Source: a virus. From it: a DNA stretch of 31,290 nt. The stretch is from positions 1-31,290 of the IMG/VR virus record IMGVR_UViG_3300034198_002113, one strand, 5' to 3'. Both the position numbers and the translations under genes were made by a program. Of this stretch, positions 5,177 to 9,009 are shown one piece after another. The notes beneath the pieces were generated by a model. It was not told the origin of the DNA and made no database searches. It saw only the letters and a list, made by a program, of their open reading frames with translations. Every line of letters begins with the position of its first letter. Within the stretch, counting starts at the first letter, position 1.

Positions 5177-5737
5177 ATGGAATTAACATTAAACCAAAAA
5201 TTATCTTTAATTCAAAAAGAATTTAAAGCAAGCAAATCAAAGTTTAATAGCTTTGGTAAATACAATTTTAGAAGTGCAGAAGATATATTAGAAGCACTTA
5301 AACCTTTTAACGAAAAGTATAAAGTATCTTTTACAATTACAGAATCATTAGTTTATTCGCAGTTTAATGAATTTCCAATGTTATGTTCTACAGCTTCAAT
5401 TAACGATGATATAGATTCTATTTCTGCGACAGCTATTGTTGGTGTAGATTTAGAACAAAAAGGAATGCAAATGCCACAAAAGTTTGGTTCTGCAAGTTCA
5501 TACGCTAAAAAATATGCTTTAGGTAATTTATTGTTAATTGATGATACACAAGACCCTGATGCAACTAATAAACACGATAAAGAACCTGTAACAGACGATT
5601 TAAAATGGTTAAATAAAAATACACCTGAATTTAATAAAGCTATTGAATATTTAAAAAATGGTGGTAATATTGCAACAATAGAATCTAAATATAAAATGAC
5701 TAAAGTAGTCAAAGACGAATTATTAAAAGTTAAATAA
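5177..5737 (+). CDS. erf: Erf-family single-strand annealing protein
   Basis: This 186-aa protein matches the ERF family of phage single-strand annealing recombinases. The N-terminal half has KYNFRSAEDILEALKP (28-43), and the family core phrase SASSYAKKYALGNLLLIDD lies around residues 105-123, followed by a Thr/Asp-rich linker and a small helical C-terminal domain. Erf proteins anneal complementary strands during genome recombination or circularisation. The operon context (NinG upstream, SSB-like protein and RecA-type ATPase downstream, a RecE-like nuclease at 13093) supports this. The stop lies 3 bases before the first attC-like palindrome, so the cassette island was joined directly to the 3' end of this gene. 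Confidence 0.9.
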   Translation: MELTLNQKLSLIQKEFKASKSKFNSFGKYNFRSAEDILEALKPFNEKYKVSFTITESLVYSQFNEFPMLCSTASINDDIDSISATAIVGVDLEQKGMQMPQKFGSASSYAKKYALGNLLLIDDTQDPDATNKHDKEPVTDDLKWLNKNTPEFNKAIEYLKNGGNIATIESKYKMTKVVKDELLKVK

Positions 5738-5740
5738 ATT

Positions 5741-5870
5741 ATAACGGTTTGCGGCTTTGCGATGGTGGGTAAATCGAAGCCGAAAAGTTGAATTTAATAC
5801 AAATGTTTAATCAAGGTACTAATGTTGAATTTTGCACGTCAGCCCCACTATTGCAAAACCGATGTTATGT
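5741..5870 (+). repeat. attC-like palindrome 1
   Basis: Outer arms ATAAC (5741-5745) and GTTAT (5864-5868) pair. An 18-bp inner stem joins 5752-5769 to 5844-5861, with three transitions, two of them G.T-compatible. The spacers between outer and inner stems are unequal (6 and 2 nt). The loop is about 74 nt. Two paired boxes with asymmetric spacers, a total length of about 130 bp and an end reading GTTATGTGCC are the features of integron recombination sites. No integron integrase gene is present. Confidence 0.6.
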
Positions 5871-5890
5871 GCCGTTAATTTCAAACCAAA

Positions 5891-6151
5891 ATGTTTAAAC
5901 GAGGACAAAAAGTAGTTTGCATAAATGACAAAATAAAGCATAGTAACAGACCATTGGGTGCTTTACGTAAAGATGAAATATATACTGTGATTGGTATGGA
6001 TGGCGTAGCTGTTTGGTTAGAGGAAATAAAAGCACCCGTAACCGGTCATTATTATGCTGAAAGATTTAGATTAGTAGAAACTGATTGGGTAGAAGAACTT
6101 TTATGCAAACTAATGTCAGAGGTTGAAGCTGATGAGTTGGTGTCTGTTTAA
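5891..6151 (+). CDS. SH3/KOW-like small protein carried as a cassette
   Basis: This 86-aa protein starts MFKRGQKVVCINDK and continues with LGALRKDEIYTVIG, VAVWLEE and YYAERFRLV. The alternating hydrophobic and Gly/Asp turn pattern suggests a small beta-barrel of SH3 or KOW type; similar proteins are common in phages and mobile DNA but have no defined role. It is the only gene between two attC-like palindromes. The start lies 23 bases after the first GTTAT, and the second palindrome begins 2 bases after the stop, as in one-gene integron cassettes. GC is about 35% by hand count, well above the phage average, and the upstream leader is not the A-rich type seen elsewhere. Confidence 0.75.
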   Translation: MFKRGQKVVCINDKIKHSNRPLGALRKDEIYTVIGMDGVAVWLEEIKAPVTGHYYAERFRLVETDWVEELLCKLMSEVEADELVSV

Positions 6152-6153
6152 TG

Positions 6154-6223
6154 GCACATAACGTTTACAGCTATACGTCAGGTTTTGTTTTTCACAAAAC
6201 TTGCGTATAGGTGGTGTTATCTG
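6154..6223 (+). repeat. attC-like palindrome 2
   Basis: The outer arms are ATAAC (6158-6162) and GTTAT (6216-6220). The inner stem joins CTATACG (6171-6177) to CGTATAG (6204-6210) and continues to GGTTTTG (6181-6187) with CAAAACT (6195-6201), with one extrahelical base. The loop is 7 nt. The ends GGCACATAACG and GTTATCTGC mirror the first element, whose end reads GTTATGTGCC. It lies directly after the 86-aa gene. Confidence 0.65.
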
Positions 6224-6288
6224 CTGGTGCGGTTAATTTAGCAGGATTTTGATTTGAAAACGAATAGAAAATTTAAAAAGTTTTAGCG

Positions 6289-7014
6289 ATGAAATATATG
6301 GGAAGTAAGGCAAGATTTAGTAAAGAGATTTTGCCGATAATATTAAAAGACAGAACAGCCGAACAATGTTATATTGAGCCATTTGCAGGTGGAATGAATA
6401 TTATTTGTGAGGTTGGGGGCAAACGAATAGCAAACGATATTCACTACTATTTAATACAAATGTGGAAAGAACTTGTTAGCGGTTGGATTCCAAAAAAGAT
6501 TACCAAAGAGGAATATTCAGAAGTAAGAACAAACCAAAGCAAATACCCTGCATATTTTGTTGGATGGGTGGGTTTTAACTGCTCTTATTCAGGCAAATGG
6601 TTTGGTGGTTTTGCAGGAGAAACGAAAACTAAAATAGGAACGGTAAGAGATTACCAAACTGAAGCAATAAATAATGTGGCAAAGCAAGTTGAAAAAATGA
6701 AAGGTGTAATATTCCAAAACAAGCCTTACTATGAATTGGAATTGCCACCAAACAGTATTGTTTATTGTGACCCACCTTACGAGGGAACAACAAAATATGC
6801 TAACGACTTTGACCACAATCTTTTTTGGAATTGGGTAAGGAATATTAGCAAACAAGGACATACGGTATTTGTAAGTGAATATAATGCACCTGCTGATTTC
6901 GTTTGCGTATGGGAAAAGGAGGCAAAATCTTCTTTATCGGCAAATGGTAAAATCGGAGGTAATAAGGTGAGCGTGGAAAAACTTTTTAAATTTTCTCCCA
7001 CAAATGTTAATTAG
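6289..7014 (+). CDS. D12-class (Dam-family) adenine-N6 DNA methyltransferase, cassette-borne
   Basis: This 241-aa protein has the D12/Dam order: N-terminal KYMGSKARF (2-10), the AdoMet-binding PFAGG (31-35), an acidic ND before the second strand (49-50), and the catalytic motif IV DPPY (161-164) followed by EGTTKYAND. It transfers methyl from S-adenosylmethionine to N6 of adenine in a specific site. No restriction enzyme partner is visible, so it is an orphan methylase that could protect phage DNA. It lies between the second and third attC-like palindromes. Sampled lines have 35-40% GC, clearly above the about 27% of phage core genes, so recent acquisition is likely. It is shorter than typical Dam (about 270-280 aa) but looks complete. 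Confidence 0.88.
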   Translation: MKYMGSKARFSKEILPIILKDRTAEQCYIEPFAGGMNIICEVGGKRIANDIHYYLIQMWKELVSGWIPKKITKEEYSEVRTNQSKYPAYFVGWVGFNCSYSGKWFGGFAGETKTKIGTVRDYQTEAINNVAKQVEKMKGVIFQNKPYYELELPPNSIVYCDPPYEGTTKYANDFDHNLFWNWVRNISKQGHTVFVSEYNAPADFVCVWEKEAKSSLSANGKIGGNKVSVEKLFKFSPTNVN

Positions 7015-7037
7015 AAGCACTATCGTAGCACTTGCAG

Positions 7038-7107
7038 GTAACTATCGTATAGACGCAGTAAAATATTAAATAAATAAATATAATTTATTGCGTTTATACT
7101 AAGTTAT
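7038..7107 (+). repeat. attC-like palindrome 3 (less certain)
   Basis: TAAC (7039-7042) pairs with GTTA (7103-7106). A 16-bp stem joins 7047-7062 to 7084-7099 with two G.T wobbles, and the spacers between stems are unequal (4 and 3 nt). It has the same architecture as the other two but is AT-rich and ends inside a promoter. It could also be a plain regulatory inverted repeat. Confidence 0.45.
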
Positions 7108-7121
7108 AATTATTATATTTG
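7088..7121 (+). promoter_or_regulatory. Bacteroidota-type promoter before the SSB-like gene
   Basis: TTG at 7088-7090 and TATATTTG at 7114-7121 fit the -33 and -7 boxes, with slightly long spacing. The -33 part lies in the right arm of the third palindrome. It lacks the paired GTTAAA half-sites of the repeated module. Confidence 0.6.
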
Positions 7122-7177
7122 TAAAACTGAATAGCTGACAACAGAAAAAAAAGGTAAGCAAATTAAAAACAAATAAT

Positions 7178-7477
7178 ATGAGTGCATTAATTAATGTTAG
7201 TTTAAGAGTAGACAAATTACCAAAAGAAAAATTTGTTCAAGGTAAAGATGGAGCAGTTTATTACAATTTTACAGTTGCAGTAAACGATAAATCTAACCAA
7301 TGGGGGCAAAATGTTTCTTTAACAGATTCACAAACTAAAGAAGAACGTGAAGCTAAAAAACCTAAAACATATTTAGGTAATGGTAATGTAATTTGGACTA
7401 ATGGAACTATCCAATTAGCAGAGAAAAAAGAAGAAGTATCTTCTAAAGAAGTGGTAAGTTCAGATTTGCCGTTCTAA
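7178..7477 (+). CDS. SSB-like single-stranded DNA-binding protein
   Basis: This 99-aa protein starts MSALINVSLRVDKLPKEKF and has a short beta-rich body (VYYNFTVAVND, NVSLTDSQTKEER, KTYLGNGNVIWTNG) consistent with a compact OB fold. The last residues, after an acidic and Ser-rich linker, are SSDLPF, the acidic hydrophobic tip through which SSB proteins bind partner repair proteins. It is shorter than bacterial SSB (about 150-180 aa) and diverged, but is a recognised pattern in flavobacterial phages. It sits in the recombination and replication block between the cassette island and the RecA-type ATPase. Confidence 0.75.
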   Translation: MSALINVSLRVDKLPKEKFVQGKDGAVYYNFTVAVNDKSNQWGQNVSLTDSQTKEEREAKKPKTYLGNGNVIWTNGTIQLAEKKEEVSSKEVVSSDLPF

Positions 7478-8376: not shown

Positions 8377-9009
8377 ATGAGTTTAACAATTACAAATGAG
8401 GATAATATGCTTTTAATGTCTCGTTATCCTGATAAATATTTTGAATTGGCTATTGTAGACCCTCCTTATGGTATTGAAGAAATAACAGGAAAAGAAAGTA
8501 GTAACAATAGAGGTGCTATAAATAAGAAAAGAGTATTTGGAATTCAATCAGAAAAATTTAAAGAATGGGATAAATCACCTTCTAAAGAATATTTTATTGA
8601 ATTATTTAGAGTAAGTAAAAATCAAATTATTTGGGGTGGAAATTATTTTGATTTACCTATTTATAGATGTCCTATTGTTTGGGATAAATGCCAACCTTGG
8701 GACACTTATAGTAAAACTGAATTAGCTTGGAGTTCATTTAATATGCCAAGTAGTTTATTTAAATTTGATAATAAAACAGGAGGAAAAATACATCCTACAC
8801 AAAAGCCGATTGAACTTTATAAATGGTTGCTTAATAAATATGCTAATACAGGAGATAAAATATTAGATACACATTTAGGAAGCGGAAGTATTGCAATAGC
8901 TTGTCACGATTACGGATTTGAACTAACTGCTTGTGAACTTGATAAGGAATATTTTGATAAAGCAATGCAACGTATTAAAAATCATACAAATCAAATTAAA
9001 ATTTTTTAA
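8377..9009 (+). CDS. DNA methyltransferase, N6/N4 type
   Basis: The 210-aa protein has catalytic DPPYG early (28-32), then IIWGGNYF, and near the C-terminus HPTQKPIELYKWLL followed by DTHLGSGSIAIAC (about 164-176), the AdoMet-binding motif I. This order (DPPY before the GxG motif) is the beta-type arrangement of the N6_N4_Mtase family, unlike the D12 enzyme at 6289. It modifies adenine N6 or cytosine N4. Its base composition matches the phage core, so it is an older resident than the cassette methylase. There is no restriction endonuclease next to it. Anti-restriction protection of phage DNA is the likely role. Confidence 0.88.
   Translation: MSLTITNEDNMLLMSRYPDKYFELAIVDPPYGIEEITGKESSNNRGAINKKRVFGIQSEKFKEWDKSPSKEYFIELFRVSKNQIIWGGNYFDLPIYRCPIVWDKCQPWDTYSKTELAWSSFNMPSSLFKFDNKTGGKIHPTQKPIELYKWLLNKYANTGDKILDTHLGSGSIAIACHDYGFELTACELDKEYFDKAMQRIKNHTNQIKIF

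Follow-up and report, generated by a model that had tools for sequence, protein, structure and literature searches.

How did two genes enclosed by palindromes come to lie between erf and the next gene of a phage genome, and do they represent the cassettes of an integron? The question is raised by the window (the whole stretch of DNA analyzed here), a complete-looking virus record of 31.3 kb from IMG/VR with an 87-bp terminal repeat, in which three palindromes and two genes occupy the interval between the erf gene (5177–5737) and the gene starting at position 7178. A preliminary description of this DNA had recognized attC-like palindromes and had proposed either the capture of a cassette array by an external integrase, or the shuffling of genes between such sites by a recombinase in Bacteroidota phages. 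At its core, this proposal names the right kind of system, but the island is better explained as an integrase-less example of a phage-type integron in which the cassettes are reversed; it very probably represents a two-cassette array of an integron-type gene capture system that is adapted to Bacteroidota phages and is mobilized in trans.

The three palindromes, P1 (5741–5868), P2 (6158–6220) and P3 (7039–7107), lie on the plus strand, as do all other features of the island. They are found essentially where they had been described, and by an arm-pair measure they are the three top-ranking TAAC...GTTA hairpins of the entire 31 kb. Each is located just after a gene end: P1 follows the stop codon of erf, P2 that of an 86-aa ORF, and P3 that of a D12/Dam-family methylase gene. 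All three fit the plan of an attC site: the palindrome is imperfect, AAC...GTT boxes form its outer ends, the stem lies inside them, and the unpaired spacers are of unequal length. P1, which has a long loop, is composed of an ATAAC box, a 7-nt spacer, a 17-bp arm, a 3-nt spacer and a GTTAT box, and P2 possesses a left spacer of 8 nt and a right spacer of 5 nt. Compared with shuffled sequences, the DNA folds of P2 (z = -6.1; 0 of 200 shuffles as good) and P3 (z = -2.5) stand out; the free folding of P1 is not significant (z -1.0), a measure that by itself is uninformative here because of the long loop of this palindrome. The arms of P1, GGCTTTGCGATGGTGGG and CCCACTATTGCAAAACC, form 16 of 17 pairs, a value reached by none of 5000 shuffles, and a P1-related palindrome with 89% identity over 140 nt is present in L011. 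Palindrome counts were obtained with our own scanner and first-order shuffles. A search with 4227 Rfam families yielded chance matches only within the island. The strict attC boxes (R' GTTRRRY, R'' RYYYAAC) are not found at these sites; the boxes observed are GTTATGT, GTTATCT, GTTATAA, GTTACCT and similar, so that only AAC/GTT, mostly TAAC/GTTA, is constant. With three attC-like palindromes within 1.4 kb and no integrase encoded in the record, the latter in agreement with the preliminary description, the island corresponds to a CALIN, a cluster defined by two or more attC sites with less than 4 kb between them and by the lack of an integron integrase in the vicinity.

The left phage flank of the island is erf itself, the product of which is a single-stranded DNA annealing protein (PF04404, E = 8e-30; PHROG 155). 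The first gene unit (5864–6162) has a body that extends from GTTATGTGCC to GGCACATAAC and contains the 86-aa ORF (5891–6151), which has no match in Pfam or PHROG that would back the SH3/KOW-like character proposed for it in the preliminary description, and no relatives in the viral contigs. The second unit (6216–7042; body from GTTATCTGCTGG to GCAGGTAAC) consists of a leader, the gene for a D12-class (Dam family) N6-adenine DNA methyltransferase (6289–7014; PF02086, E = 1.6e-18; PHROG 56, E = 1e-46) and a trailer, which are exchanged as one block. This methyltransferase may shield the phage from host defenses. Complementarity between the two ends of a unit, as in integron cassettes, is seen in both of them (GTTATGTGCC/GGCACATAAC and GTTATCTGC/GCAGGTAAC). 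The nearly mirror-like ends previously ascribed to the first two palindromes thus exist as a complementary pair (GTTATGTGCC/GGCACATAAC), but they are the ends of one gene unit, and such pairing within a unit is general. The two units are richer in GC than the remainder of the window (35–36% versus 26.7%), and the island is its GC maximum, although the structural genes reach 34%. A second DNA methyltransferase gene (N6_N4_Mtase), located just downstream at 8377–9009, has no palindromes around it.

What the locus looks like without its two genes can be read from 80 phage contigs with a close Erf homologue (78–94% identity). In most of them, erf is followed after only 50–75 nt by the next phage gene, phrog_24909 (7178–7477 in the window), which therefore marks the right side of an empty site. 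Two of these relatives (L177 and L190) carry P3 alone at the position of the island, with the same right flank as the window (GTTATAATTATTATATTTG), and in L190 the left flank ATTATAAC before this lone resident palindrome is also identical to that of the window. P3 is thus the resident site of this phage lineage. Because these relatives hold it with shared flanks, the insert of the window (P1, gene 1, P2 and the methylase) can be placed exactly: it joins directly after the left box TTATAAC (5739–5745) of the resident hairpin. Another relative (L188) contains three other small genes at this site; the first hairpin that separates them is of the S2 type, the next resembles P3, the third is P2 in nearly identical form, and P3 itself comes last. 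One other gene occupies the site in a further contig (L150). The right phage flank GTTATAATTATTATATTTGTAAAACTGAATAGCTGACAA (7103–7141) is conserved in L150, L177, L188, L190 and the window. Gene content at this position is hence not fixed among relatives, and the sites are empty or differently filled, with insertion exactly at the boxes. The gap after erf is also a general insertion spot, as other relatives hold inserts there that lack hairpins. A ParB-like ORF (~270 aa, '...VIDGQHRL...') in the erf gap of L192, L195, L171 and L193 is accompanied by a duplicated intergenic leader and no hairpins, and represents a different route of gene gain; in L174, the gap contains a 165-nt insert that resembles a tRNA gene (GGTTCGAATCC T-loop).

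The hairpins and the gene bodies of the island recur in other phages. P2 is found in nearly identical form (61 nt) in 12 viral contigs with different genes on each side, and Flavobacterium phage mymlan6-1 carries a match at 98.4%, again between different genes; the same palindromes with other genes between them, which the preliminary description had suggested looking for, do therefore exist. The identity of P2 across phages ends at TAAC and GTTA, with variable bases beyond. The complementary pattern is observed for the methylase unit, which aligns with other phages (74–94%) exactly from GTTA to TAAC, untranslated regions included; such DNA homology is present in L006, L001, L016, L018, L021 and others, and the palindromes differ on both sides. 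Among the alignments between phages, 103 are confined to a hairpin and run from TAAC to GTTA, the body-only ones run from GTTA to TAAC, and in the control such a motif is near 12% of random positions. A leader that starts with GTTACCTGCTGGTGCGG is found before a variety of genes, most of which encode methyltransferases, and the hairpins located before this leader are likewise diverse. The hairpins are also related by structure: the S2 family, with the loop CGTTTTAATG, has a covariation of 0.669, compared with 0.169 ± 0.026 after shuffling, and a covariance model (R1) built from a hairpin subfamily with this loop matches P2 of the window (E = 5.6e-5), which had not been used in building the model. 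Of the two outcomes that would have spoken against the preliminary description, a covariance search without signal and a gene content that is fixed among relatives, neither was observed. The megaphage LR745206 (634 kb, uncultured) also contains this methylase cassette, together with two hairpins of the S2 type (L001:2590-3877).

In 125 bodies of phage arrays, the two ends of one body pair with each other at positions 1–6 (0.64–0.78), and pairing between body ends of neighbors across a hairpin is at the level of shuffled sequences (0.27–0.47 at positions 2–6). Pairing within a body and none across neighbors is consistent with a circular unit that completes the site with its own two ends. Body and hairpin are often separated: the body in L006 is 94% identical, the flanking hairpins usually differ even at such identity, and only a few pairs share the upstream hairpin together with the body. 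A simple cassette of hairpin plus gene would therefore need frequent replacement of the hairpin or cutting at both boxes. This separation suggests that both boxes are usable, or that hairpins are replaced over time, and it is the weakest step of our account.

Stem-loop linkers comparable to these hairpins are known as the PeSL elements of T4-type phages, and the palindromes of the island could likewise be linker modules that serve as terminators or processing sites and as short patches of homology, at which annealing recombinases such as Erf shuffle genes through homologous recombination. Hairpins placed just after gene ends and reused at high identity, the neighboring erf gene, and leader and trailer sequences common to different genes speak for this explanation, which we nevertheless regard as unlikely; the exact stop of homology at TAAC/GTTA with variable bases beyond and the pairing of body ends within one body rather than with neighbors speak against it, and so does the finding that the arrays lie next to a tyrosine recombinase and to an attI-like motif, at frequencies well in excess of the control.

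This recombinase was encountered in a scan for integrases that covered 51 phage records, the majority of them with these cassettes; a tyrosine recombinase related to the integron integrase is present in 8 of the 51, and in the mapped loci its gene immediately follows the 3' end of the cassette region in the same orientation. A scan of the viral contigs with seven array integrases then provided 80 loci that were picked without regard to hairpins. At these loci, 215 hairpins are found upstream of the integrase gene and 15 downstream, and strong hairpins occur at 0.67 per kb upstream, 0.035 per kb downstream and 0.016 per kb in shuffled DNA. The junction between array and integrase contains the attI-like motif AACTAYTATATGTA with a score of at least 12/14 in 39 of 67 loci (control, 0), typically 60–200 nt before the integrase; the motif was not found in the window, where P3 scores 10/14. 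The isolated Polaribacter phage Leef_1 possesses four such hairpins upstream of its integrase gene, which had been interpreted as serving lysogeny (PMC8776804).

The array integrases of these phages retain the catalytic R, K, HxxR, H and Y residues, and most of them have a C-terminal SP motif, as does Vibrio IntIA. The IntI-specific insertion (TIGR02249 profile positions ~180–240) is missing from the array integrases of both the other phages and the chromosomes, and an integron integrase above the NCBIfam cut-off was detected in 0 of 299 Flavobacteriaceae genomes and 0 of 51 phage records. Their best family match is NCBIfam NF040815 ('site-specific tyrosine recombinase/integron integrase'), and the best fold matches of the phage enzyme are XerA (5hxy) and IntI4 (2a3v). 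Because of long branches, the phage group is not firmly placed relative to IntI and Xer in the integrase tree. The cargo of the arrays, 80 non-redundant cassette ORFs, includes eight N6/N4 and five C5 DNA methylases, and single ORFs match the Dam and EcoRI methylases. In the phage record G345, the integrase gene beside the cassette array (L379:8539-9768) is shortened and followed by an HNH-type ORF, as if it had been invaded by a homing endonuclease. Polaribacter phage Freya_10 (L460) has one strong hairpin upstream of its integrase; the Freya isolates differ in record length and in the position of the integrase near the start of the record, and cassette variation among them is possible.

In Flavobacteriaceae chromosomes, hairpins of these families likewise form arrays, next to the gene for an Xer/IntI-like integrase of 375 aa, and R1 matches are present in 80 of 299 genomes. 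That these chromosomal matches are chance terminators was considered and rejected, as those that were read are AAC...GTT sites. The phages differ in the orientation of the genes. At R1 sites in phages, both neighboring genes lie on the same strand as the site in 63 cases and both on the opposite strand in 0; the corresponding numbers for chromosomes are 5 and 27. Independently of R1, the better fold is that of the coding strand in phage arrays (153 to 26) and that of the opposite strand in chromosomal arrays (2 to 24), the chromosomal polarity being based on few arrays. The repeated cassettes of the chromosomal array L345 consist of a gene plus a 3' hairpin, which is the canonical layout. This layout, a gene with attC at its 3' end, is not the one seen in the phages, in which the sites are reversed and insertion occurs at the left AAC box; in phage and chromosomal arrays alike, the longer spacer is the 5' one when read along the strand that folds. 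The integron-type cassette of the preliminary description thus stands, with its exact AAC/GTT insertion and its empty or refilled sites, but its composition of one gene and a 3' attC has to be reversed into an upstream palindrome and a gene. Many chromosomal array integrases have a divergent neighbor gene (L349:18573-18974, L317:15949-16338, L347:18689-19063 and others), the small product of which contains a CxxC...GRxDKKFC motif (weak DUF2116 treble clef) and is possibly a regulator or an accessory factor.

The same chromosomal arrays raise the prospect that the cassettes of the island are of the ordinary chromosomal integron kind and were taken up from a flavobacterial host through the host's own integrase, with no phage-specific system involved. 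The shared hairpin types beside an Xer/IntI-like integrase favor such an origin, and integrase-less clusters in phages are already known (PMC9892861). Yet the polarity of the phage cassettes is opposite to that of the chromosomal ones and phages have their own integrase beside arrays. Moreover, P2 (allowing up to 3 mismatches) is absent from 397 Flavobacteriaceae genomes, so that no host donor was identified, and a search of plasmids for P2 found nothing. We consider this origin quite improbable. The integron-type array envisioned in the proposal of capture by an external integrase is retained, but a bacterial source alone does not explain it; the alternative guess of a recombinase that shuffles genes between sites in Bacteroidota phages is closer to the evidence, because dozens of phages carry an integrase directly 3' of their arrays.

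Single-strand transposition of the IS200/IS605 or RAYT type, in which the hairpins would act as the recognized ends, would be in keeping with imperfect hairpins that bear conserved short boxes and with an ssDNA-like strand asymmetry, but is hardly credible given that the enzyme co-occurring with the arrays is a tyrosine recombinase and that the boxes are symmetric (AAC/GTT) in an attI/attC-like layout; in the loci inspected, no Y1 transposase came to notice next to the arrays. Homing endonuclease mobility was considered and set aside, as were simple terminators, which leave the exact exchange of both bodies and hairpins unexplained.

From the layout of the integron-type array we infer the following course of recombination. 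Each cassette would consist of an upstream hairpin and a gene, with P1 belonging to the 86-aa gene and P2 to the methylase. The enzyme, a tyrosine recombinase, would use the coding strand in its folded form as substrate and cleave it at the A^AC box that lies 5' of the hairpin; the cassettes would leave in circular form, each circle completing its site from the two matching ends of one body, and would be inserted before a resident hairpin. In canonical attCs it is the bottom strand that reacts, and it does so at the box located 3' of the gene. When this rule is applied to the phage polarity, the reaction is expected at the AAC box 5' of the hairpin, and this box is the exact joining point of the insert in the window. 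The activity of the attC top strand is lower (PMC9892861). For the phage of the window, the recombinase would have to be supplied in trans, either by a co-infecting or resident phage with its own integrase beside an array, or by an integron-like integrase of the host. Since the cargo is biased towards DNA methyltransferases, the likely benefit would be that modification enzymes able to overcome host restriction can be exchanged rapidly.

More broadly, we think it likely that Bacteroidota phages own a class of integron characterized by an Xer/IntI-like integrase that lacks the IntI-specific domain, by an attI-like site, by cassette genes that face the integrase, and by folding of the coding strand. 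It would provide a shared, swappable store of small phage genes that is rich in DNA methyltransferases, and integrase-less phages such as that of the window would use its cassettes in trans. In the open-access literature we found no description of a layout that combines an integrase with reversed cassettes. Integrons have been studied mainly as bacterial platforms; here, their logic is met again in a trait widespread among phages, which is equipped with an integrase and an attI-like site of its own and with inverted cassettes, and which offers a concrete mechanism by which phages might swap methyltransferases and other small genes. These data bear on whether the IntI-specific insertion is needed for the use of folded sites, on how genes acquire attC, given that hairpins and gene bodies exchange separately, and on phages as a reservoir of cassettes. 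Isolated and sequenced phages, e.g., Polaribacter phage Leef_1, make the system directly testable.

Compared with chromosomal integrons (IntI/attI/attC), the phage arrays are alike in their tandem cassettes, AAC/GTT hairpin sites, attI-like junction, and an integrase at one end, and in both systems the ends of one cassette pair in the circle. They differ in that the array integrase lacks the IntI-specific insertion and falls below the NCBIfam cut-off for integron integrases, that the cassette genes are reversed relative to the sites, and that the boxes are not GTTRRRY. The Flavobacteriaceae arrays (L345, L349, L354 and L317) share the hairpin families and an integrase without the IntI insertion, but are distinguished by the N-terminal extension of this enzyme (~375 aa), by canonical polarity (hairpin 3' of the gene), and by a divergent Zn-ribbon-like neighbor in many loci. 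Recombinases of the XerA type and NF040815 provide the best likeness in family and fold, but the array integrases sit beside cassette arrays. XerA, in turn, resolves dif sites. The nearest counterparts among viruses are the CALINs, integrase-less attC clusters, that Qi et al. (2023; PMC9892861) described in virulent phages including Polaribacter phage P12002L, an attC of which was recombined experimentally by IntI1; 'divergent directions' are mentioned for this phage, and it carries five R1 matches on the strand of its genes. These CALINs resemble the island in their attC-like sites between phage genes, their DNA methyltransferase cargo, and the lack of a phage integrase; what distinguishes the system outlined here from that description are the dedicated phage integrases beside such arrays, the empty sites, and the consistently reversed polarity of the cassettes.
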